A stretch of DNA of 64,000 bases from Psococerastis gibbosa. Its lineage: Eukaryota > Arthropoda > Insecta > Psocodea > Psocidae. A model generated the notes under the pieces. The model made no database searches. It saw only the letters and a program-made list of their open reading frames with translations, and was not told the DNA's origin. Shown in pieces: positions 1 to 54,200 of this stretch. Position 1 is the first letter of the stretch, and every line of letters starts with the position of its first letter. The position numbers and the translations under genes were made by a program. The stretch covers positions 46,234,888 through 46,298,887 of the forward strand of contig OZ020488.1 of the NCBI GenBank assembly GCA_963971405.1, given 5' to 3'.

Positions 1-22
1 GCAATAGCGTCCGACGAAAAAT

Positions 23-430
23 TCAAGGCTGATAGACGAGCCAGTAGAACATCATGCTGGTTAACGCTGTCAAAAGCTTTACTTTTATCCAGTATAATGT
101 CATAATGGTGACCATCCCACCATCCATCACATTTAATAACGCTGTTGTGGTACTGCAACCTGCACGAAAACCAGATTGGAAATTGTCTGTCAAGCTGTTG
201 AATTTTAGGTACTCAATCATTTGCGAATGAACTATTTTTTCTAGAGCTTTTGACAAGATAGGAAGAAGACTGATCGGTCGTAAGTCGTTGAAAGATTCTG
301 GTTTCTCACACTTCGGCAATGGTTGAACAATAGAGGTTTTCCAAGTTATGGGAAAGATGCTTGATGCCAAAGATTGGTTAAAAATGGTTACAACAGACGG
401 TAAAATGTGATCTATTAGGCGGCTAATCAT
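23..430 (-). pseudogene. LINE reverse transcriptase fragment
   Basis: This is the N-terminal part of a LINE reverse transcriptase. RPISLLPILSKALEKIVHSQ matches the conserved fingers segment, and FQSGFRAGCSTTTALL the segment before the first catalytic aspartate motif. The frame ends at 23, and later motifs, including the YxDD box, would lie beyond the left edge. An in-frame TAG separates this piece from the upstream basic linker, so the parent ORF is already broken. Confidence 0.8.
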
Positions 431-855
431 GTTTGCGTTTATGGTGTCAAATCCAGCGGCATTAGATTTAATTGAAGAAATAGCCTTCCGAACCTAATGA
501 CGGGATACTGCCTTAAAACAGAAAGACGGGCAAGTCGGCTTGGGCTGAGACATAATATTTTCAACCGTACTGTGCACTTCATTTATAAGAGGTATAGGCA
601 CTACGGATGCATAGTGACTATTTAATTTGTCTGGATCAAAATGTGAAAGGGAATTCGTTGTTTTCTTACCAACTCCAAACTTTTTAAGACCTGACCAAAG
701 TTTCTTCCCAGACAGTTCGCAAAGAGAGTGAGCTTGTTTTAATTTGGCATTCCTGATGGCCTGTGACACCCTGTTTCTGAGTTTTTTGTACCTGGTCCGC
801 GCATCCAATGTAGAGTGGCGTTTGCAAAGAGAGAATGCTCGATCCCTATCCTTCA

Positions 856-2035
856 TTAGAGTTTTGATGACTGGTGTGTCACCCTACGTGTGACTACTGG
901 TGCAAATCTGTCATACAATGAGATTATCATTGAATTCAGCCTTTCTATTTTGTCATTAACACTGGAGAGTACCTGAATTTCGTGCCATGGTAGGAGTGCC
1001 GCTAATCTCATAAAATCCTCTTCACTGAAATCTTTAAAACTTCTGTAGGTGATAAACTTTGGTGGTGGTTTAGGGGGCTTAATAGAGTAACTTAGATAAA
1101 TCAAGTCATGGTGAGAAAAACCTGGAGCGACTAACTGCCCATGATTCAGTGCGCGCCTACTATCACTAACAACCATTATGTCCAATAGAGCATTTTCGTG
1201 GGTGGGAGATAGCGAAAGAGGTTGCATGTCACATGACTCGAATATGCTCAACAAGCTCCTCGTATCAGGTTTCTCCTTTTTTAGCAAGTCTGCGTTGTAG
1301 TCGCCAGTTACAATAATATGATCATACGCAGTTGAAAGCTCCAGAAGAGCTTCATGAGTAGAGGAAGAAGAACGCAATGATCCACAGTAAATGATTACTG
1401 TGGATCATTGCGTTCTTCTTCCTCTACTCATGATGTTCTCCAAGTTCCACGAAGTCACCAAGGAAACTCTCACAAGAATCCAGATGAGCTGATTCATACT
1501 CTAAGAATGCACTATCAACGCAAGGAGGCCTGTAGCAAACACCAAATAAAAGCTTTTGTTTTCTCAAAATTATTTCCATGAATATAAATTCACACTTTTC
1601 GTTATACTGCCCGTTTGACAATTCGAGGACTTTGGCTTTAATGCTATTGTGTACGAATATCCCAACGCCACCACCACCCTTCCCAATGCGATCATTCCGA
1701 AAGAAGGAGTATTCGGGGAGAGCAACCAGGCTAGAGTCCAAAGAGGGCTTCAGCCATGTTTCACTGACCGCTATAATATGAAATTTACAGGAGAGAAAGG
1801 AGACTTGTAGGTAATCAACATGAGCTAAGAGGGATTGTGAATTAATATGAGCAATATGAAGTGCAGTAGGGTGAAGTTGAGCAACTGATAGTAATGAGTC
1901 CTCTAACGAGGATCCATTTTCAATATTAATAGTATTCTCCGCTGAATCAGCGTCTATTAATGAATAATTATTCAGGAGGAATAATAGCTCATTAGAGAAT
2001 AATTCAGGATCATCAGCCATGGTTTGGTGACTCAA
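856..2035 (-). pseudogene. LINE ORF2 endonuclease domain, interrupted
   Basis: The endonuclease/exonuclease/phosphatase domain nicks target DNA to prime reverse transcription in LINEs. The first piece (2035-1424) starts with MSHQTMADDP and carries the N-terminal half of the domain. The second piece (1377-856) carries GDYNADLL and SHHDLIYLSY, which fit the metal-binding and catalytic histidine region. They are in different frames and separated by a perfect 39-bp inverted repeat, so no single open frame spans the domain. The ATG at 2035 may not be the true ORF2 start, because related sequence continues upstream to about 2088 in another frame. The copy is non-functional as it stands. Confidence 0.75.
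1352..1433. repeat. Perfect 39-bp inverted repeat with a 4-nt spacer inside the LINE
   Basis: The left arm 1352-1390 and right arm 1395-1433 are exact reverse complements and flank the spacer ATGA. The arms contain AGGAAGAAGAACGCAATGAT. It would extrude as a long hairpin. It sits exactly where the LINE endonuclease frame changes, so it replaced or added sequence within a coding domain. It has no transposon termini or target duplication that I can see. A template-switch event or an assembly artefact are both possible. Confidence 0.9.
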
Positions 2036-2089
2036 ACTCCGGCAATGACTCAGAGCACTTAATGTCCCTTGCCGGTTTTTCCCCTAATA

Positions 2090-3170
2090 TACAGGTAAAA
2101 CTTCTTTTATTATTATTATGTTGCTGATTTGTTTGTTCAATATGCCACACAAGGAGTTGTCTTGCGCTCATAATTCTGGCCTTCCTTATTAATAAGCTAA
2201 CTGCATCATCATTGTTTACAGTTGTTAGGTACTGAAACGATTTTGTGTGTCTTGAAATAGCCACTATGGCGTGAGGAATGCTGTGGTAAATTTCCAGCGG
2301 CAACGGATTCATTCTGCACAAAACAACGTGTTCAGATGTTTTCCCTTGACTCTGGTGGACTGTGCAGATTTTGGATGGGTTTAGAGCACTTACCCTCTAG
2401 TTCTTTTGAAACTTTGCGTTTCTCAGCTTGAGTAAAATGTTAAAATGAGTGAACCAGGTTTTAACTGGTAAAACTCACCATTAATAGATAACGTTAGGGC
2501 CACTGAATTTACGATTGGATTTCTGCTTATGATATTCGGGTAGGTCGTGGACAAAGCGTATGCTACATCTACAGGGCACCTCCTGGTCTGAGTAAGGAAA
2601 GCTTCCGGACTGCACAGCCCAGTGACATTGTGAAAATTTACTTTGAAAGGGCTTCTCTCTAGGTATGGAATTTGCTTATTATCTCCGAGGAGGACAATTT
2701 CCTTTGCGTGAGTAAGATTAGCGACAAAGCCAATAAAACCGGCATGACCAAGCGAAATTTCATCAATAAAAACCCTTTCATACTTTTCCCCTCGATAATT
2801 GATTATAAATGATGAAATAGTGCGATAGTCCTGGAGAAGCTGTAGATTTTTGTTGTTTGGAAATCGCTTTTCTGTTGCTATTCTTATATCTTTTACAGCC
2901 TCCCTAGTGTGGGTCAGTAGGCTATTAGATCCCGCCCTGGGCTGTGCTGCTGAATGATGTAATGCGATTTGCCTGATCCGGGGCAGCCCTCAACGAAAGT
3001 CAGCTTAGACATTGGACGTGCGAATATGTTCACCTTGCCTATAGACTGCATCAGTTCAGCATTCAGCATTAGCTCTGTCTTATCTGTTACCAAGATATAT
3101 TTTTCTGCAGTATTGAATTTTTGTATGATAATTGATACATTTATTAGAATGTTGAGTTGAAATATTCGCA
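2090..3170 (-). pseudogene. Endogenous viral element: virga/nege-like RNA virus superfamily 1 helicase, broken
   Basis: The minus strand carries, in the right order, the motifs of a superfamily 1 helicase of alphavirus-like positive-strand RNA viruses: motif I GCPGSGKS (2965-2988), motif II VFIDEI (near 2757-2778), motif III LLGDNKQIPYLER (near 2655-2695), motif V TVHQSQGKT (near 2335-2360) and motif VI AISRHTKSF (near 2235-2265). GDxxQIP and SRHT are typical of tobamovirus-like helicases, and virga-like elements are known in insect genomes. The copy is broken: there is a stop at 2914-2916 with a frame change beside it, then two more frame changes near 2430 and 2370. No methyltransferase or polymerase domain is visible, so only the helicase segment was captured or survives. 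The sequence runs into a LINE at the low-coordinate end and a GC-tract repeat near 3175 at the other. Placement in a viral family is inference. Confidence 0.85.
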
Positions 3171-3174
3171 TGCC

Positions 3175-3500
3175 AGAGTTGGCAAATCCCTGGGTCCGAA
3201 CTCCCCCCCCCCAAATCACCATGCCCTCGCGACGCCCCTGGTAGAGCTATATGGAAGGTGGCAGGCCACGAAACCAATGGAGGTGGAAAGTGACGAAAGG
3301 TATCTGTATGGTGGCTTCGGCAGAGTAAAACAAAGAACCGGGATGTCGAATAGAGGTGGTAGTGGTATACCCACCGGCCACCTTAAGCTGTGGTGCCCAA
3401 GAATAAGATGAAAACAACAGAATATATATCAATTCAATCCCCCGCCCAAAAGGTTGTAAACCTGTATTGTTTGAAGAATTGGAATACATTTATTTGAGTT
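3175..3500. repeat. Fragments of hAT-like GC-tract MITEs
   Basis: A C-tract near 3204 followed by GCGACGCCCCTG resembles the terminal end of a hAT-type MITE read inward on the minus strand. The stretch 3450-3490 (TGTAAACCTGTATTGTTTGA and on) is nearly identical to the inside of the hAT MITE at 17623-17815. No paired ends or target duplication were found, so these are fragments. Confidence 0.4.
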
Positions 3501-20100: not shown

Positions 20101-23100
20101 CTTCGCGGTCATTTCAGAATCATCCTGATATTACTCGGATGTTTGATCTATTTCACTTTACAAACTAAATAACAGTTGTGCGTTAAGAGGACATCGTATC
20201 TAGACTTCGGTCACTCCTACGGCTTGACCCAAAACGTGGTACTAGCCATATACTATATATATACACATATATAGTATAACACTGTATAAGGAGGTGGTCG
20301 AAAATTAGAATTTGGAGATGGAGATGGGATGTTCTCATGGTTGGATTGGTGGACGGGGAGTTTTTGGTTTCATTACTTTATCAACTATCTTCTTAGGAAA
20401 TTCGTTGGCTTGGGCTCCCTCTGAAGGTGAGAATCCTTCGAGTTGCTGGCAGTCGCAGTCAGTTGTCTATTGACGAGGATCTTTGTTCAGGCGACTCTGA
20501 TGTAACATTTGTGTTTCAGTATGTTATGTTACTTCTCCTGACCAACATGGTAGTGGCTGTGTTCACAGTTCACACTGGTGTACCGGGACTTCTGGCTGGC
20601 TGATCTCAACGAACGACATCTTAGCAGTTTTGTATTGGCGAGGATCTTTGCTCAGGCGACTCTGATGTAACATTTGTGTTTCAGTATGTTATATTGCTTC
20701 TATTACTTCTCTTGACCAACATGGTAGTGGCTGTGTTCACACTGGTGTACCGAGACTTCTGGCTGGTCGATCTCAACGAACGACTTCGCAGTCAGTTATT
20801 TACTGACTACGGCCCTCGTTCGGGCAACGAAATTTATTCAGCCTTCACGAATGCTATGGACTTCAGTCAATACAAGGTATGGCGATATAGAGCAACCGCA
20901 CCTCCCCATCACCTTAGACCCCATAATCGCAAAAAAAGACACACGATTTGATACTTTAAATGCAACCTTAAATTTCCAGTACGTTTCTCGTCTCTCCGAT
21001 TTTTTTATAGGTAGCCTACAGTATGTTATTTCATACTGTACAATAAAAAAAAACCTTTAAAGATATGTGATAATTTCCTTTTCTGTGTGTAAGCCCATTG
21101 TAATTGGAGACGAGTACAAGATTCTCTAGCCAAGCTGCTGAGGTGTTTGTGGGAAGGACTGCTGCTAGAGAATAGGTAGTCTCAACAATTCCGTTTTAAC
21201 ATCCCGAACAAGAGCACATACAAACAGTAATAGAACAAAAAATTCAAGATCTATTTATTTATTTTACCCGTATGTAAATACAGGGCGAGACTTCATACAC
21301 AATAACAGTATACGTAATACGTATATGTAAATACAGTGCAAAACTCCATGTTCATGTTCGAATGTTTCTGCCTTATTTATAATACCGTAATGTACGAGAT
21401 GTATGAGATGTATGAGACGAGTTTGGCATTGCTATCCCAATCAACCTATCCGCCCAGTAGTTTCGTATAACAGTGCCACAGCCAGCAAAGTAGCTAGTTT
21501 TCTCAACAAACACATTCGCGAGCTATCAAACTTCACACCCCGCCACAGCGTCAAAAACTCATTCGAGTTGGTTTCCCGCCTTAAGCACCTTTCCTTATCC
21601 AGCAATGCCAAACTCGTCTCTTTCGATGTCAAAAATCTGTTTACTAATATTCCCGTACCCGAAGTACGTAAATTAGTTGCCCAGTCACTCTATCACAATA
21701 ACACCTCGAACAGCCTTATTTCTGAGACCCTCCTTCTGTTAGACACATGCACCCATCAAAACTATTTCCGCTTCAAATCCGACTACTACCAACAAAAAAT
21801 AGGTCTACCTATGGGTTCTTCCCTTTCTCCCCTTCTTGCTGAAATTTTTATGGATAACTTCGAACACAAACTTCTACACAATAAAAATCCCCTAGTTAAA
21901 TGTATATCTTTCTGGACAAGGTATGTGGATGATATCTTCTGCATTTGGACAGGAAGTAACAGACAACTAGACAATTTCTTAAGTTTTATCAACACAATTC
22001 ACCCAAAAATCCAATTTACCATGGAAGTAGAAGAAAACAACTCCCTGAACTTCTTAGACCTCACCATCACCAAAAATAATAGTACCCCAGACTTCAAGAT
22101 ATTTCGTAAAGAAACCCATAGCGATAATATAATCCCTGTTGATTCTTCTCACCCATTCCAGCACAAACACGCAGCATTCCATAGTATGATTTTTCGACTC
22201 CTTAACATCCCTATGAATCAAACCAACTATAATAATGAATTAAATACAATAAAACAAATTGCCCAAAATAACAATTTCAATCTCAACCTAATAGACAGAA
22301 TCCTACGACATCACAAAATCAAACACAACCTCAAACTAATTTACCCCCCAGGGAGCTTAAACCCGGTAACCAATAAATCATATTTCAGGATACAATACAT
22401 AGAAAAAATCACAGAAAAAATTAGTAACCTCATTTCTTCTACAACAGACAAAACACCAGCCCCGTACAATCGCAACAATTTGGCCAATAAACTCATGAAC
22501 TGCAAAACCAAACCAGAAAAAGAAAAAGGCAATGGAGTTTATCGTCTAAATTGTAACGATTGTAACGCAATTTACATAGGCCAAACAGGCAGAAGCTTTA
22601 AAACTAGGGTCAGAGAACATATAACAGGTATAGGAGACACCAACACCAACAGCACATTCGCGAAACACCTTAACTCGGAAAACCACACATTCGATCCTCA
22701 CAATTGGACAGCCCTACACAAAATAAAGAAAAGTTACACTTTAAATTTTTTTGAAAATGTTGAAATCAAAAGAGCTTTACACAATATGGAAAAATTAACA
22801 AACGACATAACATTCACACAATCATCCCCTCTAATAGATCTAGCTAGTAGGTTAGGAATAGGTAACCAGCCACGCCCCCTCCCACCCCCTCCTCCCCCCG
22901 CTCCCAGTCCTATATAAACCAAGGTTTCCTCTCCCTAGTCACATTTGCATCTTCTCCTCGAGTTGAGCAAGTCTCAAATCGCAGATAAGGTGTAACTGTG
23001 CTAGTGGGTTTCCCTCTGTAGATGGCAGTTCTTGCCGAAAGCGCTCAGGGTTTTATACTAACACAAGTGGGTTTCTTAGACAAAGTTAATTTCTTAACGA

Positions 23101-26100
23101 TTATTTGGGTTTTACTAATTCGGGTTGTTATAACAAGTTTTTCTAAAACTCTAAGTTTTTGTTATTTTTTGTTTATTTAATGTGAAGATTAAATAAATAA
23201 GTTGTATACAAGTTATCTAGTTGGTAAGTAATGATAAAAATAAAAAGTAATACTATAAAGTAATACTGTCTGCCAATACATATCATTCTTATATATCTTA
23301 ACTAAGTCTTTATTATTTAAAAATGGTAATCTTATAAAAGGTAGTCTATTGGATTCATTATAGCTAATGTTTTAATAAATTTACGTTTGCCATCGGTGAT
23401 GTCTAAATGTTCACCATAGATCACAAAACGTAACCCTGAATCAGGGTTATTTCATGAATGGTGCGACACAATAACAACAGGGCACGGATAGAAAGGCACT
23501 GATTCCATCTGCCTATTCAGAATTTAATAAAGGAACTAAAGAAGGCATTGGAGGGGAGCAGAGGGGAAGTGAGGAAAGGGGGAGGGGTGCAGAGCTTCAC
23601 CACCCCCTCCCCCCGGACATTCTGTGGAGTTAAGTGACTTGTTTGCTGACGAGCAAGCACGTTATAAAAAGTGTTAATCACTCGAAACAATTAGTAACAC
23701 TTGCTAACTACTCTTTTTGATGTAAATTTCCCTTCTTTTGCTTTTAGTTACTGGATATAGTAGCACTAGGAAGGCAAACACAACTATGCATAGGTCGAAA
23801 TTTTCGATTTTGCGACTTCAAAGGAATAACACGTTTTGAGGTCCCACGGGACCTGTTTTGGAGTCTTGCCAAATATTTTGTGCAGTTCTGTCCGTCAGTC
23901 CGGGTCCTTTGATTTAATGAGGGGTTTACCATTGGGCATGCAGCATGTAGAAACACAATTCAACAAGCTGAAACTCTTGACGTGCAGCAAGTATGTCCAT
24001 AAAACGAAATGAACCATGGACACCCTGTTGCTAGGATCACTGGTCTCAATTATCACGTACGTTCAAGGTGAGAATGCCGAAGACCTGTCAGAACATGCAA
24101 ACACTTACTCAGATCTAATGGGAGTACATGGCACGATTGTTACGATATAGCGACGAATCATCCCGCATTATCCCACTTAACTGAACGTTAATGACGCAAA
24201 TTCGTAATATATAATTTATTAGTATGAATAGATATAATGTATGCTGTAGTCTTTGTCACACATTTTCAGTCGCTTCCTGCTAATACGATACGTATATACA
24301 CGATCCACCGAAAAAATAACAGTAATGGCTAGATTTGCATTATAAAAGGTAAAAAATCAATTTAGTTGTGGGCCTAGTACCGTAGTAATGATATTGCTGA
24401 TATTGCCATTAGTTAATAATGTGTTAGTGTTAAATGTGTGTTTTGGTCAGTTTGAGTGCTGTGGCATCAACGGCGACGAGGACTACCAGCACACGAGGTG
24501 GTGGAACGAGAGCATGTCTTCCACGGAGAGAAGGAACGTGCCGTCCACGTGCTGCACGCCTGCCCTAGAGGACGACGTGAGTGCAAATACATTATTATGC
24601 AATACCATCCATATTATCGTCATTGTAGGCCTAGATAATGTAAGTGATAACACGATGCCCTGAAAAGGCATAGATCGTAGGTTCGAACCCTGCTCCGTCC
24701 AGATTTTTCTCGACTTGGCCCTTTTCGGGATGCCACTTCAAACCCGAGTCAATTAGGTGTTAAAAAATACAGCGTACATTCATTTCATTGAAGAAACACA
24801 GTGTTTCTTATCTTTAAATATTTGGCCGCATTGTAATAAAGTAAACTTGAAACTATAATTATACATCCGCAGGTAAAGTAATATTTAAAACGATCCATAC
24901 ATAGGTATCTCTAAATATTATTTCACTGAATGGATGTATCATAAGCTTAACATGAGTGGTCAAATTCTCCACTAGTAGCAGAACCACCCAGTGGTAGTGA
25001 CCGTTTGCCGGTACCAACTCCGCCAACCAACGTGCGTTATGGTAACGCTGGTCAATACTTATATATACGCTTAGAATTCGACATGAAACCAACGGAATTG
25101 TCACATGTTTACGGTTTTGGAACGAGGGAAAGATGGCAAAAGCATAAATATCAAAATGTATCAAAAACTAATTTTAGACATGGAATTTATAATGGATAGC
25201 TCAGCCCTTATCGAGGGGTTTCCACTTAGCACTTAACTCCGAGCCCGCGCCTCATTTAAAATTGAGATGCCAAACACCGAGCTGCCACCCTGACTTCCGC
25301 AGGCCCTAGCACGGAGCGGTTCTGATGTATTGTGGGCAATAATAAATTATTAGTAAAGCCAGTAAAGGCTTTTCCTAAGATATTCATTTTCGTCCTGTAA
25401 CTTGAGATTTTCTCTGGACACACTGGGCAAAAGTCCAATGTAATCACACACGCTTTCACGGCCGGAGTTAGACGTGATGAAGCAGTAGAATCTGGGATAA
25501 TAGGCCGTGGTCATCCTGAAAGCGTGCTTTCAAACGTTTCGTCAACAGCTGCGGTCGACATCTTCAGTGGAACAGCGTAGACTTCTATTCTATCTCGGAG
25601 GCCCAGCAGCAACTGAGCCTGCTGAGCCTTCGAGATACAGTCTTAGAAGTCTGCACACAAAGAATTATTACAATTACGCACCCACACACAAAATAAGCAG
25701 AGCTAAACATAATAACCATAGCGACATTAAATTTTTTTTAAATAATCATCCCACATAATTACATACAGTAGCTACCTGAATCTGGTTATTTGACGATCTT
25801 ACTTAATACTTTTACCCATACGGTATCGGTATGTGATTGCTTACATAATATATTTATTTAGTTATTTAGGCTACTACCCAAATTAAAAGGTAACGAATTC
25901 TGCTGCACCTCAGCCCAACATCCTGTCCCTAATTGCTATAAGGTAGACACAAAATTTCTATATTTATTATTGCCTATGCCTTAGAATATGAAACCCCCGA
26001 ATGATAAATGTAATGCAATTCAGACCATAGACTATACGCAATCGCTGCGACCATTTGTATAGTACTGATTGGATTTAGACATGGCCATTTAAATTTGTTA

Positions 26101-29100
26101 GATACTAAAAAATATGGATTGCGCAGCTGTAATCCTCAAAGCGCATGTTGGTGTATACTGTGACGTAAATATTGGTCATTTAGTGCTCATTTCTAAATCT
26201 GGTCGACGACCGTCCTATCACGCTCAGGGCCCGTATCGACCCCCCCCCCCTCCCACCCCTCCCTCCGGTTGGTAGTGAAGCCCCGTCCAAATTGTTCAGT
26301 TTCCTCTCGACATTGTTCCTGTAATTGCGAATACATACAAAGATCGGGACAACTCCTAAAATTCCTCGTATAGGCTTTTCATACTATAGGAAATTGTTGA
26401 GATTTCATCATGTACGATTAATTGGGGGCTACTTTCCGCAGCCACTTGTACCGTTAAGAGCAAATCCCACTATGGTACGCGTATTTAGTACCAAGTCGAT
26501 TTTAATAGGAAATGTCCATCGTAGCGTCATCAAAAATATCTATTAAATTAGCAGAAATGCTCCTCTACATTTCGATATATGACATGTGATCTTGACTGAC
26601 ACCAATTCGTGAGCTCCATCCTCGGGACTACTACATCAATAGCTTTTTGTACTATCAAATTCAATTCTGCCTTAGAAAGAGAATCATATCATGACGTATC
26701 AAAATGCCCAGAAAAATTTATTTCGTGTCTGTCGCGCTATTATTGATTGATGTCGGAATTAAAGATTAAAGAATTAATGAATGATAATGATTGATATTCC
26801 AAATGATATTTGACATTATCATACATTTTTATACACTCTCTCCTTCTCACATTTTCTCTTAAAGTTTTGACTCGGGCCGGACCCGGATACAACTAATGTG
26901 TTGTGCTGACCATTGTCCTCAATTTCGTTATAATGATTGACTCTTGACAGCTATAGGTGTAAAGGTAATGCACGTGGGGACCAGTCAAGCTAAGTTCTAT
27001 GGTTTAGACTCAGGTACCTAATGGTTCACTGGTAGGCGAAAACGCGGCTGTGAAACATGTTGCAGACACCAACATCCCGCAAGTAGAGGAGTAGTCAACA
27101 TAGAGCATCCTCTGCCAGACCTTAGGCCTACAACTTATTGGGTTGTGTTTTTAGTTTGTATTTGTTTTTAGTTGGGCCAATTTGCGTAGACTGTTCTGAC
27201 AGGTGGTTACTTTTACAGCCTCAGTCGAGCAGTGTTGGCAGCCCCATCAGCGTAGTCAGCAGGGTCTTCCACGGGACGGTGAGTTTGCTGTAGCCTACAA
27301 TTATGTATAACTATAAATAAGTTATTTAAAAGAAATAATATATAGTAGTGAGCATAGTAAACTGTGAGCTCTTATTCAAGTGATAATAGCCTAAAGCAAG
27401 CTCAACCTCCCGCGAGTCATCATCAAACACTTTCGCATAGAAATCCAGTGGGGACCCCTACTACGCCCCTCATACTTCAAACACCAATTCCTGCACGTTC
27501 ATGATTATGCAACTGTGTTACCACTACATTTGTCTAAAATAGTCCAGCCGTTAGGAAACTGGCCTGTGAAACGGAAGGCTGAGATTCGAAACTCAACATA
27601 TAGAGGAAAAAGTTTGATCCGGACCTGGACCTGGGTCCACCCAATACTAGTGGCCAACGGACAACGGCAATAGGGTTTCGAACGTCGATTGTCCAGTTCT
27701 CTAAAACCGGTAAGGAAAACGCGACTGCCGGGTATGTTGGTGACCATAACACACCAAATAGAGTTCAAGTGGTCAAGAGAGAGAGCATTCTCGACCTGTC
27801 GTTACGCCTAGACTTCCAATGGGCTGTCGTGCCCGAGAGTCACGGTCACACGCACCCCTCCAGTCTCAGGACGGTAGGCGAGACTTATTTTAAAAACGCA
27901 TAGCAGCAGCCCGATCATGGCGATTCGGGATTATTATAATACCGGGGAATATTTGCCATTGTATTGCATAACAAGGACAATAGTTGGCTTTTTTTTCTTG
28001 TTTTCCATGTCAATATTTGTTAATATTTAACTTATATTAGATTCGATGTGCCACCCTCCCAGGCTTCGGCTTAAGGGGGCACAGGTCGTTATTTCACATG
28101 TTCATTTTTGTTGAGAAATACACGGTTTTCTATTCTATTCTATATTCTTTTATACCGAAGTCGTAAGGTGTTAAAATATGTGCGGGAAATTCAAATTAAA
28201 AAATCCCTTTCGGCTCTGGCCGATCAGGACTATCAGGAGTAGGGAGATTCCATGCAAGCGCAGACCCCCTTTTTCCTCTATGCTACGCTATGTATGTAGA
28301 TAACAATAAAAAAATAATGAGGAACCAGTAGAATCCGGGCTGATGGGCCGGGACCCGATGACGTCAGCAGGTGTTTACAGGATTCCGTGTTCGTGTGGAG
28401 AAGTCTATATAGGTACTACGAAACGAAGCTTAAAAACCAGGATTGATGAACATAAACGAAACTGCCGTCTTCTACAGTCGGAGAAGTCTGCAATCGCTGA
28501 GCATGTTCTAACACAAACCGGTCACATAATACAATTTCAAGATGCTACAGTACTTTCTACAACTTCTTCATACCACCCTCGGTTACACAGAGAGGCTATA
28601 GAGATCCACAAGCACCCGCATAACTTCAATAGGAAAGAAGAAGGATTAAAGGTCAATAGAATTTGGTATCCAGCCTTAAAGAAGACTACAGCAAAGAAAC
28701 TGGTGTCATCATCCGGAAATCAGGTTGAGGTAGTAGGGAGCCAATCAGGAGCGAGGATGACTCCGCCTCCACCCCCCACCACCCCGCATCTTAGTATAAA
28801 TTTCAGAGCACAACCTCCTGCCCTCACAGTCGCTGCTGAGCCTCCGAGATACAATCTTAGAAGTCTACGCAGTTCCACTGAAGATGTCGACCGCAGATGT
28901 TGACGAAACGTTTGGAAGTTCACTTTCACTTCGACCACGGCCCATCAGCCCGGATTCTACTGGTTCCTCATTCGACTCCGGCCGTGAAAGCCTTTGCAAT
29001 AAAAAAATACTTTATTCATTTCCCAACCACAACATCAACACACTAAACACTCATGATTTTTTACTTATCAAATTATTTTCACTTTGACTGGACGCCATCT

Positions 29101-41600: not shown

Positions 41601-44600
41601 AGAATTATATAATTAATTATAGACAATTTATACCTGCGGGTAGAGCTCACAGGGCCGTGACAGCGCTGGCGTGCCGCTCAGGAGGATCACGTGACTGCAC
41701 ATAGGCGTCAGCTCCATGGCTGCCTTCGTTCTCGCCGTTTTCGTGTTCTTTATAAAATGGGACTCGTCCTGCAACCATACGTTGTCCAGCGACGTCAGAA
41801 TGTCCCTGTATCAATGCTTGGGAAATTTTAAGACCCCTCCGGAGTTGTAATTACAATTATATTTCACAGAAAATATTGGTCGCAGAGTCGTCAGTGAAAC
41901 CTCATAATTATGTTAGAAAAATATAGAACACGGTCGATTCTACGAGTCGCAATTTGCCGGATTGTAGGGATAGCGCTTGGTGAATGGTCCGTGCAAAACC
42001 ACAGAGTTAACGCCTATTGTTTCATATTATGAATCAATACAAAGATGTTCTATTCTATTCGGATTCAGAAGATTACTATGATCTGGCGTGTCTAGGTGTA
42101 ATGCTTGCATTTTCGTTCACGCCAGCTTTCGATAATGTCTAGAAATCTTCTGGTAACCCAATGGCTACAATGGAAAATTGCAAACTAGGATGATGGTCAC
42201 TGTGCACCGGACAATAACACCAATTTAACACAGGTATGGCAAAGAGAGTGCGCTAGTAATGTTGTGTATTTCAGGTCAATTTTCCTCCCAGTTCTCCCGC
42301 TTTCCGTAACCGTGGCCTGTCAGTGTTAATAAATGCCACATACTGACTACACACCTGTGGACTAAGGTAATGCCATGTAATGTACAGAGTACAGAAAACT
42401 CATCATCAATCTAAAAGTAAAACAACAATATTCAATATAAGGACCCCAAAATGGTACCCGTTATCAATATTTCATGAGCTGCTCTTTCAAACACTGTTAG
42501 GTATTGTAGGCTAGTTTGGCGTCTCGACGGGTAACAGTGTGTAAGGTGTGTATTGTAGAAGTGTACTCTTATGCAACCAATCGATGTTTCACCGCCGCGT
42601 ATTCGAGGGACACTGAAGAGCCTGAGGAGTGAGGACTGGGGTTGGGTAAGAAACGCAATGAATACCCCAGCCCAGGCAGGGGCGGATTAGGGTGAAACCA
42701 TTACAGTTTTGTTTTTATTTTGGTGACGAGGTCGACCTGCATCCTGCGATGCATGGATGCAGGTAAAATGGCATTAAAACACATTTGACTTGACTTGATT
42801 AAATATAAAATATTAAAATATATAAAATATAATATACTAAAGTTACTTACAAATATAATAACTCCAAAACGTTTCCTCTTGATGGCATCTATGGTGGACT
42901 TGAGGAGATCGTAGGATATGATGACGACATTGGCCTCCTGGATGACGTCACTGCCACTGGTGACGACAACGACGTGGAACGGGTTGACGGACGGCAAGAA
43001 CCTGTGGATGGCCTCCTCCCACGGGAACCGCATCGATGACGGGCATACGATCAGCAGCGGCCACTTTTCGACGAAGTAGTGGGCAACGCCCAGCGCTTGC
43101 ACCGTCTTTCCCAGCCCCATGTCGTCTGCTATTAAACACCGCCCTTTTCTTGATACGCCAAACCTGCAGTGTAAAAAAGATACTAATGTATATTGTGTCT
43201 ATAGGAGACATCATATAAATGAATTCAGTATACAGTGACTTCGTACTCAATTATTTTCGGAACGTATGCTAACATTATCTGAATTTGGGATTTAAATTTA
43301 CAATAGTTACATTCCTTCATTGCACTCTTTTTCATGTGTGACGCATATCAGTGCTAGGGGTACTCACATGTGGATTGTGGTAAGATGGGAAAATAAAATA
43401 GAAATAAGAAAGTAAATAAAATAAGGAATGAAAAATCGTAAAAAAATACAATGCATTTTATATTTATTTGCGTACTTCATATTTTTATTTTCCTTGACTT
43501 TTCCCCACTCTTTGTTTACCGATTGCTTTTGCATGAAGCTTCTACTTTTAGGTACCTTTTGTTCTAGCTGGGACCAAACCACCTTGATAGGTTAACGACT
43601 AATGATCAATTCATACTCACTTAACGCCTTCAACTTGAAAAGGAAGCAATGCACGCAGTAGAACGGGGTCAATTTTGTTAATATCTATATTGGTATCCGG
43701 TTCAGCGGGTAGGAAGGCACTAACGACTGACTTTGGGAGAGGCTCCAATTTAAACACTCGACCCACAACAGCAGCTTTGGAAATAAGAGAAGCATGCATA
43801 TCCAATGAAAAATTCCACATCTTTGTTGTCTTATCTAAAAATACACATTATTATATACATGGCGAAAACAGCAAATGCCTTCGCTGGCTGTACATATTCC
43901 AGTTTACGGCAGTTAGGTTCACTTCAGCTACCCGTAATGAAATCACCACACTTGGTTACACTGTACATTAATTATTTAGCTTAATAGGAACCAATTTCTG
44001 ACAGGAATAAAGGTCGGCGAAGAATAGCTGTTTCATGTCGAAATTTGGCAATGATATCATTGCTTATGACCATTGTAGCGAAAGGAGCTTGCCACTTGCC
44101 AGAGACATGGAAAAACATAAATCCTTCATTGAAATGGAAATTGTCTATTGTAAATGGGACGTTTTTCGTTCTCTTGTTGTTGTTGTTGTCTGTGAGTATA
44201 AGTAGCGTAGAGACGCTAATTAGTCTCTCCATGTATCACATAATATTAATCACAGTTTAACTTGAGTCTATGCAATAACGAACTATTTCATGATTTTGCA
44301 TTTTCACATGATTTTCACCCGTGCTTGTTTACAGCGGGATAGCTGAAGTGAATTACTCTCGGAACTTTTTCTTTCATATTCAAAAAACATAACTTCTGTA
44401 CTATAATCTAAAGCTTAGAACTATTCACACACAAAATATGAAGCATTGAGAATCCCATATTTCTGACTTACCATAGGCACGACCCGGAATAGATTTTAAA
44501 AGTTCAATAACATTTGGGTTAAAACCAGTAAGGGAGACAGCAAATCGAGAGGTAGATATCAAATCACAAATACCAGATACAACAGCATCATTATCAACCT

Positions 44601-44823
44601 TTCCACTTATATTTATTTTATTATTTGCTGTGGTACATGACGTAGGCTTGAACTTAGACGATACCGTGCTGCAGCTAATAGTGCTAATACTGCTGACAGC
44701 TTGACCGTTATTTAAATTATTGTTTTTCGCTATCGGTACAGATAGCTGTTGTTGCCGTTTTCTTTGGGCTTCCCTCCTGTTTTCTTCAATTCGCTGTAGC
44801 TGCTCCTTAGACAAAACTTCCAT
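38666..44823 (-). CDS. SMARCAL1: SMARCAL1/HARP annealing helicase, complete, eight exons, 711 aa
   Basis: An SNF2-family ATPase of the nucleus that rewinds RPA-coated single strands and remodels stalled replication forks. Exons (minus): 44823-44472, 43834-43621, 43163-42851, 41768-41634, 41328-41077, 40614-40310, 39697-39619, 39151-38666. They sum to 2136 nt, an exact frame with GT-AG introns. The N-terminus [20 protein letters not shown] is the RPA32-binding helix. A single HARP domain spans the exon 1-2 junction (about residues 83-137; [16 protein letters not shown], then WNFSLDMH). The ATPase carries MGLGKT (Walker A), DESH (Walker B; residues 294-297) and LLSGTP. The C-terminal lobe ends with [10 protein letters not shown]. 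After that comes an acidic tail. Insect proteins have one HARP domain, vertebrates two; the length is close to the insect form. The start is the first ATG before the RPA motif. It is divergent from FMR1. Confidence 0.95.
39440..39465. repeat. Poly-G tract in SMARCAL1 intron 7
   Basis: A G-tract of about 15 bases near 39450-39464, in the intron between exons 7 and 8. Confidence 0.85.
39873..40015 (-). repeat. SINE-C copy in SMARCAL1 intron 6
   Basis: The reverse complement shows GATTGCAAGGTGGTAGCGTG, GCGAGTCTCTACACGCCGTA, GTCGGAGATGTGCCGTAACT and the GAAGAGGTCAATCAGATGCA tail. A T-rich run precedes it in window order. Confidence 0.65.
41860..42690. other. SMARCAL1 intron 3 DNA, nothing firm
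   Basis: No repeat family or hidden exon was recognised here. Exon 3 joins exon 4 directly in phase 0. Confidence 0.5.
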
Positions 44824-45275
44824 TGTATGTGTTCACTAATTGAATTTAACTAATTTATAAGGGAACAAATTTTTAGAAACTTCATTTTAACATCCATTGT
44901 TTGTTTTGTATACAGAAATTATACAAATAAAATGGCGTTCCATAGACATATTACAAAAGTCTTTATAAAATTGAAGTCAATGGTTTCAACCATTCATTTT
45001 TATTATTGCTGAAAATAAAATATATTACATTTTTTATCAGTTTTTATTGTATGTACAAAAATGTGACAGTATAAACTGAAATAATTATATAAATTTAAAA
45101 ACTCAACAGCATTTTATATCAATTAAATTTGCTATGTTGAGCTTATAATGATAATTCACCTAGTTCATGGTAGAACCGCAAGGGTACGCTACTTTACCCA
45201 CGGTATTTTGTATAAGCTCAGCATCGGTGTTTCCCATGGTTTGGCCAAAAAATTTTACGTCGGCCTGAAATCAAA
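44824..45275. promoter_or_regulatory. Shared intergenic region between divergent SMARCAL1 and FMR1 start codons
   Basis: Only 452 bp separate the two opposed start codons, so both promoters and 5' UTRs must fit here unless upstream untranslated exons exist. The interval is AT-rich. I see no convincing TATA box or initiator at a fixed distance and no CpG-rich core. The assignment rests on gene geometry alone. Confidence 0.6.
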
Positions 45276-51200: not shown

Positions 51201-54200
51201 AATTATTTCCTATGAAATTACGCATGTAATAAAAAAAAATATCTACTAATTTATAAATTGGAAAGCATGTTTGAGTAAACTCGGAGCGGTTGTTTTGATT
51301 CCAAATTATGTCTCGCTGTCCCCCTTTGTCTCTTGTACCTCCATTTAGCAATAGGCCACATTCTCTCAACTGTTTCTGTATGAACTCCTGTATCAGGATC
51401 AATAAAATTGTATTTATGATGAACCTTAGCATGTAGGAATCGTTCTTTTATTATTCTAGTTCCTTTGTAACTCCAATTGTCAGAATAAATTGTGCTAGCA
51501 TCTGCATTGTTTTCAATAATTTTATCAAGAAGGGTAGAGGTAGTTCTATTAGAAACAGTGACAACAAAACTTTTGTTTCTCTGCAAATACCGCCAAACAC
51601 CTACTCTTCAGGTAGTACTTGACCACACTTATTTTTACGTTGAAAAAACAAACTTTCATCAATTTTCACAATGCAACCGAGCCCACCTATCTGGTTTGGC
51701 TTTTTCTTCATATCCAAGACACATAATTGTTACAATCTAATTTTATCTGATAATTCCAGCTGATTCTCAAAATTTTATCGATGTCAAAAGCAGTATATGA
51801 ATATTATTATAGCTGAACAAAATGGAATTCTGCTCAAGTCAAACCAAGTCTATTTTATTTCTAAGTCCCACTTGCCGATCACATTGTCTTAAATTACATT
51901 TCCTAAATTTATGTTTATCAAAATATAGTTTTTTGGCATGGGAATTGAAACATGTTCGTGTTTATAAGGTCAAATATTTCGCTCTTGATGGTATAAAATG
52001 GTATCTTGTTCGGTTATTGACAAATACCAAATACGCATTTTCGTATACCTAAAAATTGGGTTAAAAAATCAGCTATAATGAAACCAAAAGATAATTTCGT
52101 ACGAGTACGAACAACCAGATTGCTCTTTAGCAATTAGCGCATTAGCAGAATTTTTGCTGCTGTGGCTTTAATTCGTAAGTACCGAACGGACAACCGCGTT
52201 ATATCCCCCATTGTGTAATATCACCCACGTTTACCTTACGTGCAATCCAGAAAATTATTTGGTGAGAACTTGCTATGTTACACGACTGATTCCGAGAGTG
52301 GCCGGGACAACAGAAATGAAACTACCTATAGATGTTTACTCAATGGAGTAAGCTTGTAGGATTTTAGATGAATTTCAATGCTGTACGTAGATTGTAAGCC
52401 AATGATTGCGTTGTTGTGCAGTGCTAAGATGGAGAGCGCACACAAAGAGTTCCAGAAGGCGGTCAAGGCGGGCAGCTGCCGGTTCCTCCCCGAGAGAGGA
52501 GTGCTCGTCTTGTTATCCCGGCACGAGACCACGAAGGAGAAGGCCGCGCTCGTCCAGGACATGCACTTCCGCAACCTCTCACAGAAGGTGCTGCTCCTCA
52601 GGCGGATGGAGGAGGCCACCAGGCAGCTCGAGACCACCAAGCTACACACCACTGGCGGGTGAGTAGAGTACGAGGGTTAGGCCATGAAGTGATCAGGGTG
52701 CTGCTCTTGGGGCGGATGGAGGAGCAAGCACAGTGTTTGTTGAGATGGCTCCCGGTGGCAAGTTGCGACATGAAGACTTTGTTTCGTAAAGCTATGCGGC
52801 TTAAACTGCCGTAGGCCGCAATAATTATGGTACTTTCCTGCGAGCCCTCACATGGTAGTTTTCATTTTACTCATTGTGATGATTGGGGTTTGACGGTGTG
52901 TGTAGGTGCTCGGACGAGTTCTCGGTGAGGGAGGACCTGATGGGGCTTGCGATAGGGGCGCACGGGACCAACATCCAGCAGGCGCGCAAGGTCCCGGGCA
53001 TCACCAACATCGAACTCGAGGAGAACTCGTGCACCTTCAGGATAGTTGGCGAGGTGAGTCTGACCAGTGCGAAATGTTGCCTCATCCAATGTCTATTGAT
53101 TGCGTATTTAGATGGCACAAGTTTGTTTGTTTCTTGTTTTTATTTTTCATTTCCATTGTACGTATGCCTATATTTATGTCGCCAGTCTGTAGTCAATACT
53201 TGTTTTATAGTGCGTGTACAGTAAAAGTCCTCTATTCAAGACATGCGACATTTACGAAATGATTTCCAATATTTTTGCTTCGGTTGGAATTCGGCCACTT
53301 TCCCTAGAACGGAAGACGTGCATTTCTGGAGAAGCCTAGAAATAAATGATAGCTTTCGGTATCTGGGACATCACTACATCTACTTACGTTTTTTAATTTC
53401 TTTTGTGTAGTCCTTGGAAGCTGTTAAAACGGCGAGAGGCATGCTAGAATACAGCGAAGAGTCCATTCAAGTCCCCCGAATCCTCGTTGGCAAAGTAATT
53501 GGAAAGAACGGGCGTATCATACAGGAAATCGTAGATAAAAGCGGAGTTGTAAGTATTTTTGTCGTTCTACGATTGGACTAACTTGTAGAAGTACTTGTAC
53601 AGTGGGATGGACTCCGAATTTCATTAGAAAGATTGGCATTTCGAGTCTCGTGTGTGGGGGGTATGCAATACAGTGGGGAGTTCCAAAAATTAGTTCGCTC
53701 TAAATGGAATGAAAATGGCGGCCATTTTATTTGACTTATGTACAGAGAAAATATATATTTTTATATGTATGGAGAAGAGATAGTTAAGAATATATTTTGC
53801 TGGTTCGACAGTTGAGTATGGTAGTGGTACAACGAGGTAACGATGACTGTTTGAACCCACTGCAGGTGCGCGTGAAGATCGAAGGGGACAACGAGCCGCA
53901 GCCAACGATCCCACGCGAGGAGGGCCAAGTCCCCTTCGTATTCGTCGGCACGGTCAAGTCCATCGGCAACGCCAAGTTCCTGCTCGAGTACCACCTGGAG
54001 CACCTGAAAGAGGTGGAGGCGCTGCGGCAGGGCAAGCAGGAGATCGATATGCAGCTGCGACAGGCCCATGGCACGGGCCCCGCACCCCCCTCCCTCCCCT
54101 TCAACCGCCGCAACGAGCGGTAAGTTGCGTTTCATGTGAGCTGAGGTCCGCCTCTATATTAACAGTAGATTATTGCCGGGATATGCTATCAATTTAATAA

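Follow-up and report, generated by a model that had tools for sequence, protein, structure and literature searches.

A virus-type helicase frame in the genome of Psococerastis gibbosa most likely belongs to a 5'-truncated LINE

Does an RNA-virus-type helicase in insect DNA record the capture of a virus, or is it the gene of a mobile element? The question is raised by a stretch of 64,000 nucleotides from Psococerastis gibbosa (contig OZ020488.1 of assembly GCA_963971405.1, positions 46,234,888 to 46,298,887; hereafter the window), for which a preliminary description had placed the helicase of a virga/nege-like RNA virus at positions 2090–3170 and proposed a germline capture of a viral genome, copied by a host reverse transcriptase (RT). 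Our analysis supports, with high confidence, another identity: what was described is the helicase frame of an inactivated long interspersed nuclear element (LINE) that has lost its 5' end and belongs to a type with three frames, encoding a gag protein with CCHC knuckles, the helicase, and an endonuclease (EN) joined to an RT. This reading rests on a same-strand order and overlapping frames that recur in other copies, on the viral type of the helicase, and on a cut 5' end together with a 3' tail; the confidence covers what the element is and not what its helicase does.

On the minus strand, the window carries all six superfamily 1 (SF1) helicase motifs in order between 2988 and 2235, as first described: GCPGSGKS (motif I, 2988–2965), VFIDEI (2773–2756), GDNKQIPYLER (2686–2654), TQAEK (2433–2419), TVHQSQGKT (2363–2337) and AISRHTKSF (2261–2235). 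Shuffling the triplets of 2000–3260 a thousand times and reading them in six frames gave one motif hit in total; the six-motif observation is real and far above chance. The domain is spread over four frame pieces, which amounts to the roughly three frame breaks reported earlier. The first piece (2917–3123), holding motif I, matches PF01443 below the cut-off (E 0.033, match span 2917–3246) and shares 88–97% identity over 67 amino acids with loci L002, L003, L005, L008 and L030 of the same genome, with lower values in more distant copies. The middle piece (2426–2989), with motifs II and III (VFIDEI and GDNKQIPYLER) and the block TRRCP, passes the Pfam cut-off for PF01443 (Viral_helicase1, E 2.4e-12); its match in the PDB is the tomato mosaic virus helicase 3vkw (E 7.4e-9), followed by the helicase and nsP2 protease chains 6jim and 7y38 (a chikungunya complex by title). 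A short piece (2371–2436) contains the TQAEK block (2419–2433) and is 91% identical over 22 amino acids to the L003 helicase by tblastn, while the last (2013–2396), with motifs V and VI (TVHQSQGKT and AISRHTKSF) and the C-terminus, again passes the PF01443 cut-off (E 3.8e-9, 2016–2396). Judged by these profile and fold matches, the helicase is of the alphavirus-like, virga type, nearer to viral than to cellular SF1 helicases, as had been proposed. The window copy itself is broken and should yield no whole helicase.

Immediately behind the helicase lies the open reading frame 2 (ORF2) of a LINE. The helicase stop codon (2013–2015, minus strand) overlaps the ORF2 start in ATGGCTGA (2020–2013, minus strand, read from the sequence), and the same arrangement is found in L003. 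Searched with the middle helicase piece, the genome (409 Mb, 68 contigs) gave at least 117 matches, 69 of them in two tandem arrays (27 on contig C3 and 42 on C14) and 48 elsewhere. Linkage was examined within about 1.5 kb of flank for the best 30 of these 117 matches, corresponding to 26 distinct places with the window included. By tblastn, an EN or RT follows downstream on the same strand in 19 of the 26 (18 of 25 without the window), some of them through short or distant matches (42 amino acids at L007, EN at 33% in L016/29, RT at 24% in L022), and a gag frame precedes the helicase in 14. At the DNA level, homology runs unbroken across the helicase–ORF2 junction at four other distinct places, with 94.3–97.1% identity by blastn. 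A helicase frame that adjoins or overlaps a same-strand EN-RT ORF2 is present both at window positions 2013–2020 and in the genomic copies, and the locus is a member of a LINE family scattered through the genome rather than the captured viral genome first envisaged.

The ends of the element agree with this picture. Once the loci holding the window itself (L001, L031 and L032) were excluded from the blastn comparison, nine distinct places were found to start matching the window exactly at 3123, the point at which the window copy has lost its 5' end. The span given in the preliminary description was slightly off: homology with longer copies starts at 3123 and not at 3170, and the element runs past 2090, just short of the junction, through position 1 and out of the window. 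Its portion inside the window thus occupies 1–3123 on the minus strand, a decayed copy continuing about 1.2 kb further left to a (TAA)7 tail near C13:46233643 (L031 7144–7164). Truncation at the 5' end and a simple-repeat tail are traces of target-primed reverse transcription in LINEs; dispersed copies, 5' truncation and a TAA tail are all seen here. The window copy would have been made through this process by the LINE's own enzyme, which is a more likely copier than the host reverse transcriptase proposed before. Directly 3' of the element, on the same strand, lies another LINE-like EN/RT (L031 3914–7093, minus), whose RT is 36% identical to that of the window.

The remains of ORF2 in the window, all on the minus strand, were resolved into successive pieces. 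Its start and the first part of an APE-type endonuclease (1427–2020) match PF03372 below the curated cut-off (E 0.0017), which the longer endonuclease frame of L003 passes (E 2.6e-8); the second part of the endonuclease with the beginning of a linker (859–1404) matches PF14529, also below its cut-off (E 3.8e-5). The linker from endonuclease to RT (497–883) corresponds to no Pfam family; where it begins, L003, L006 and L008 are collinear with the window. The first part of the RT (26–493) gives a sub-threshold RVT_1 match (E 1e-5) and continues left of the window in L031 7566–8384, where the next frame passes the cut-off (E 7.2e-15). Pfam types this ORF2 at the level of the RVT_1 and Exo_endo_phos families, and the Jockey lineage is a putative placement. 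Within the endonuclease, the window copy has 127 extra bp (1352–1478, minus strand) that appear as a gap in blastn comparisons with L003, L006, L008 and L025/26. They overlap a 45-nucleotide inverted repeat found by a repeat search (arms 1346–1390 and 1395–1439, 96% complementary), which is perhaps the product of a template switch at this insertion absent from the other copies.

Less broken copies show the architecture more fully. In L003 and L010, a gag-like frame, the helicase and the EN form three frames with overlaps of between a few and about 140 bases, the RT lying in the neighbouring stretch. The CCHC-type knuckles of the gag-like frame are read from the sequence, with sub-threshold Pfam hits. 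The helicase frame is open over 685 amino acids in L010, where it retains the motifs, and is split over two overlapping frames in L003. Since the RT region beside L010 is also divided between two overlapping frames, these copies are less damaged than that of the window, without being proven whole. In both loci the helicase ATG stands just ahead of the gag stop, which suggests stop–start coupled translation, a mechanism known in other LINEs; the helicase would be translated in this way from the element RNA. Several near-identical copies have an open helicase frame, with L010 and L011 differing at about two sites in 685 codons. For this reason the family of L010 (family B), related to that of the window and L003 (family A), was probably active recently, while the window copy is dead.

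To place the helicase among its relatives, we built a tree of 46 rows, comprising all 42 collected proteins (numbered P), three open frames from genome loci and the middle piece of the window (188 amino acids), none removed by hand; 11 rows are viral and 35 are not. With this virus sampling, the rows nearest to the window piece are not viruses: they are L003, L010 and P0001–P0003, which are LINE copies from the same genome and unnamed relatives of equal length. A LINE branch unites 32 rows, and the viral capture would lie further back in time, common to many LINE-type relatives. An ancestor of these LINEs may have acquired the helicase module from a virga-like virus, probably once for the 32-row branch, and the module would since have evolved as a protein of LINEs under purifying selection. 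Comparing the L003 and L010 helicases, among nine loci picked for long open frames, gave a proportion of synonymous differences (pS) of 0.76, which is saturated, and of nonsynonymous differences (pN) of 0.26 over 461 codons; the helicase was under purifying selection during the divergence of families A and B.

The module, about 420 residues long, consists of an N-terminal domain and an SF1 core. Few, if any, of the listed fold matches extend over the first approximately 205 residues of P0001. From 27 relatives a hidden Markov model (HMM) of the N-terminal part was built; it matches L028, a locus of a second LINE lineage, at 6.9e-64, while the last third of the model matches P0026 at 1.5e-7 and P0030 at 1.4e-6 (E-values for a set of 16 sequences). 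A protein search with L028 residues 160–460, which hold the N-terminal part, found nothing at E ≤ 1 among 2603 candidates, a result that says little, as the HMM does match.

Several observations weigh against this account. Seven of the 26 places (L002, L004, L005, L017/24, L020/23, L021 and L027) have no EN or RT detectable by tblastn within the flank of about 1.5 kb, and inspection by eye recognised no target-site duplication at the two ends of the window element. The 32-row branch consists largely of predicted proteins without a name, considered apart from the contigs that encode them. Of the 35 non-virus rows, P0026, P0036 and P0042 fall outside the LINE branch, so the tree does not show a single capture for all LINE helicases; a topology that joins P0036 and P0042 to the 32 rows is compatible with the approximately unbiased test (p-AU 0.19). 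Among the recent copies L009–L015, the ratio of nonsynonymous to synonymous rates (dN/dS) ranges from 0.13 to 0.97 on 1–17 differences per class, and selection is not shown there.

Could the helicase instead be a stand-alone fragment of an endogenous virga/nege-like RNA virus, lying beside a LINE by chance? Its viral type is what such a fragment would display, and the window copy taken alone cannot separate a chance neighbour from a single unit. The other copies can: the junction with ORF2 recurs at 94–97% DNA identity in the four places described above, and on this repetition we reject a stand-alone capture, against which the gag frame upstream in 14 of the 26 places and the non-viral nearest tree rows also speak. 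A viral polymerase was looked for as well. With P0030, a virus-type protein that carries a helicase and an RNA-dependent RNA polymerase (RdRp), all 45 matches in the genome fall within residues 157–487, on the helicase side, and none on the RdRp part (45 of 185 candidates scored), which fits the capture of a gene and not of a whole viral genome. The RdRp family PF00978, used as a query, gave no match in the genome, but no control genome responded to it either. Comparison with viral contigs brought two pattern-matched stretches for the L010 helicase and 28 for the alignment A2, none of them confirmed. The lack of matches on the RdRp part of P0030 disfavours the stand-alone fragment further, and we consider it very improbable. 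Still more remote, to a degree that is practically negligible, is a cellular SF1 helicase of the Upf1 kind, or the helicase of a Helitron or another DNA transposon: profile and fold rule out the cellular enzyme. The preliminary description had set such cellular and transposon helicases against a viral one; the locus does lie within a transposon, yet its helicase is of viral type.

A further alternative accepts the same LINE and concerns only what its helicase does. The protein could suppress small-RNA silencing of the LINE, or serve the host in antiviral defence, rather than assist copying, as proposed by Morozov and colleagues (PMC5563155, in the portion of the text cited here). In the same source, the helicase domain of a TRAS-type LINE of P. 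xylostella weakly suppressed silencing in N. benthamiana, and the excerpted text of PMC6338049 describes such domains as apparently without an essential function in retrotransposition. The open L010 frame with its motifs, and the N-terminal fusion of a helicase to EN-RT in P0029, fit either role. We regard silencing suppression or host defence as unlikely, although a real contender. An NTP-driven enzyme unwinding RNA or RNA–DNA in the ribonucleoprotein of the element, and thereby helping its copying, has in our estimation about an even chance; the remainder falls to another function or none.

Returning to the LINE, the gag and helicase frames are found ahead of more than one ORF2. A third family, C (L005, L016 and L017, on three contigs), has common downstream DNA at 91–96%. 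Between families A and C, gag is 90% and helicase 82–95% identical, while the RT is 35% identical over 112 aligned amino acids and the EN has no match; between A and B the values are 60% for gag, 62% for helicase, 25% for EN and 37% for RT. One copy of each family was compared, the EN/RT frames of A and C being partial and C being followed into the RT only at L016/L040. There, another EN-RT stands behind a spacer of about 400 bp after a gag and helicase nearly those of the window family. We had considered L005, L016 and L017 as the same LINE continuing, given a shared ORF2 start; this was ruled out by the EN and RT of L016/L040, which are of another lineage. The gag–helicase cassette precedes at least three different ORF2s in one genome, a related helicase is fused to an Ulp1 protease in a fourth LINE (L028), and in P0029 a helicase is fused directly to EN-RT. 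Among the domains of a LINE, the RT is as a rule the best conserved, yet here gag and helicase are far more alike, so that the 5' half seems to have been swapped among lineages of ORF2. We tentatively propose, at rather less than even odds, a portable 5' cassette passed among LINEs of different ORF2 lineages, its viral helicase perhaps aiding whichever RT copies it. Segmental duplication is another possible cause of the family C likeness. Metcalfe and Casane (2014, PMC4120745, in its excerpted text) described reticulate ORF1 evolution and possible whole-ORF1 transfer for two lineages of the Jockey superfamily of LINEs, CR1 and L2, and cassette exchange, if true, would be a new case of this known tendency. 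A captured viral enzyme would then spread between LINE lineages and not just within one, and its benefit for copying would become a testable question.

The second LINE lineage of this genome is represented by L028 1–3117 and L034 2–2076 (C21, about 242–248 kb). L028 carries one open frame of 1130 amino acids (1038 of them within L028) that combines a virus-type helicase with a C-terminal Ulp1 protease (Peptidase_C48, E 1.4e-12), and EN-RT-like frames follow it. The two long tandem arrays at C3:25.59–25.89 Mb (L037) and C14:20.23–20.88 Mb (L038) are both built from an L028-type helicase frame that ends before Ulp1, with stop codons in common. In the stretches read, their units measure 3393 bp and 5337 bp, and the repeat copies are 99.6% and 99.98% identical, respectively. 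These arrays may represent a satellite-like use of a LINE gene.

Elsewhere in the window, an RT followed by GIY-YIG in one 508-amino-acid open frame (21391–22914, plus strand) and another GIY-YIG piece that narrowly misses the cut-off (28310–28900, plus) belong to what we take to be a Penelope-like element. Matches to SNF2-related (passing the cut-off) and HARP (below it) at 42704–44832, minus strand, and to KH and FXMRP1_C_core (below the cut-off) at 52883–54120, plus strand, likely mark host gene exons, presumably of a SMARCAL1-like and a fragile-X-related gene. A piece of an IS1595/ISXO2-like transposase (51254–51607, minus) and a tetraspanin-like piece (24346–24660, plus) are both below the curated cut-offs.

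Compared with known systems, the window element belongs to a published kind, a LINE with a virus-type SF1 helicase before ORF2, and is not an endogenous virus. As far as the excerpts of Morozov et al. (2017, PMC5563155) go, such helicases occur in ORF1 of Jockey-type LINEs of Nilaparvata, Homalodisca, Gerris and Ceuthophilus (Hemiptera and Orthoptera) and are regarded as independent of the captures by TRAS elements of Lepidoptera; in Nilaparvata lugens, the helicase frame lies close to or overlaps ORF2, by 2 nucleotides. The likeness comprises a viral-type SF1 frame directly before an overlapping EN-RT ORF2, many copies and six retained motifs, whereas the separate CCHC gag frame ahead of the helicase in L003 and L010 has no counterpart found in the excerpts of that paper or by a term search through its text, figures aside. 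The TRAS/R1 LINEs of Lepidoptera likewise captured a tobamovirus-like helicase, there placed C-terminally in ORF2 (Lazareva et al. 2015, PMC4686597, excerpted text), in contrast to the separate frame before ORF2 seen here. Relative to the tobamovirus/virga-like replicase helicase (3vkw), the LINE protein shows no methyltransferase or RdRp, has an extra N-terminal part (about residues 1–205) without an assigned fold, and is fused or linked to LINE genes. The Ulp1-type protease of the L028 family is shared with the non-LTR retrotransposons NeSL and Utopia (PMC4640811), where, in the text excerpted, it is N-terminal in NeSL and one Utopia family; in L028 the protease follows the helicase, at the C-terminal end of a protein encoded ahead of an APE-type ORF2, while Utopia has a restriction-like endonuclease and the word helicase is absent from the text of that paper. 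Among titles and abstract beginnings of the open-licence literature, we met no helicase–Ulp1 LINE, no tandem arrays built from such an element, no separate gag frame before an SF1 helicase and no exchange of an SF1 helicase cassette. Taken together, a would-be paleovirus is replaced by an RNA-virus-type gene living, under selection, in a retrotransposon, and where virus-type helicase matches turn up in animal genomes, an adjoining LINE ORF2 should be looked for before endogenous viruses are named.
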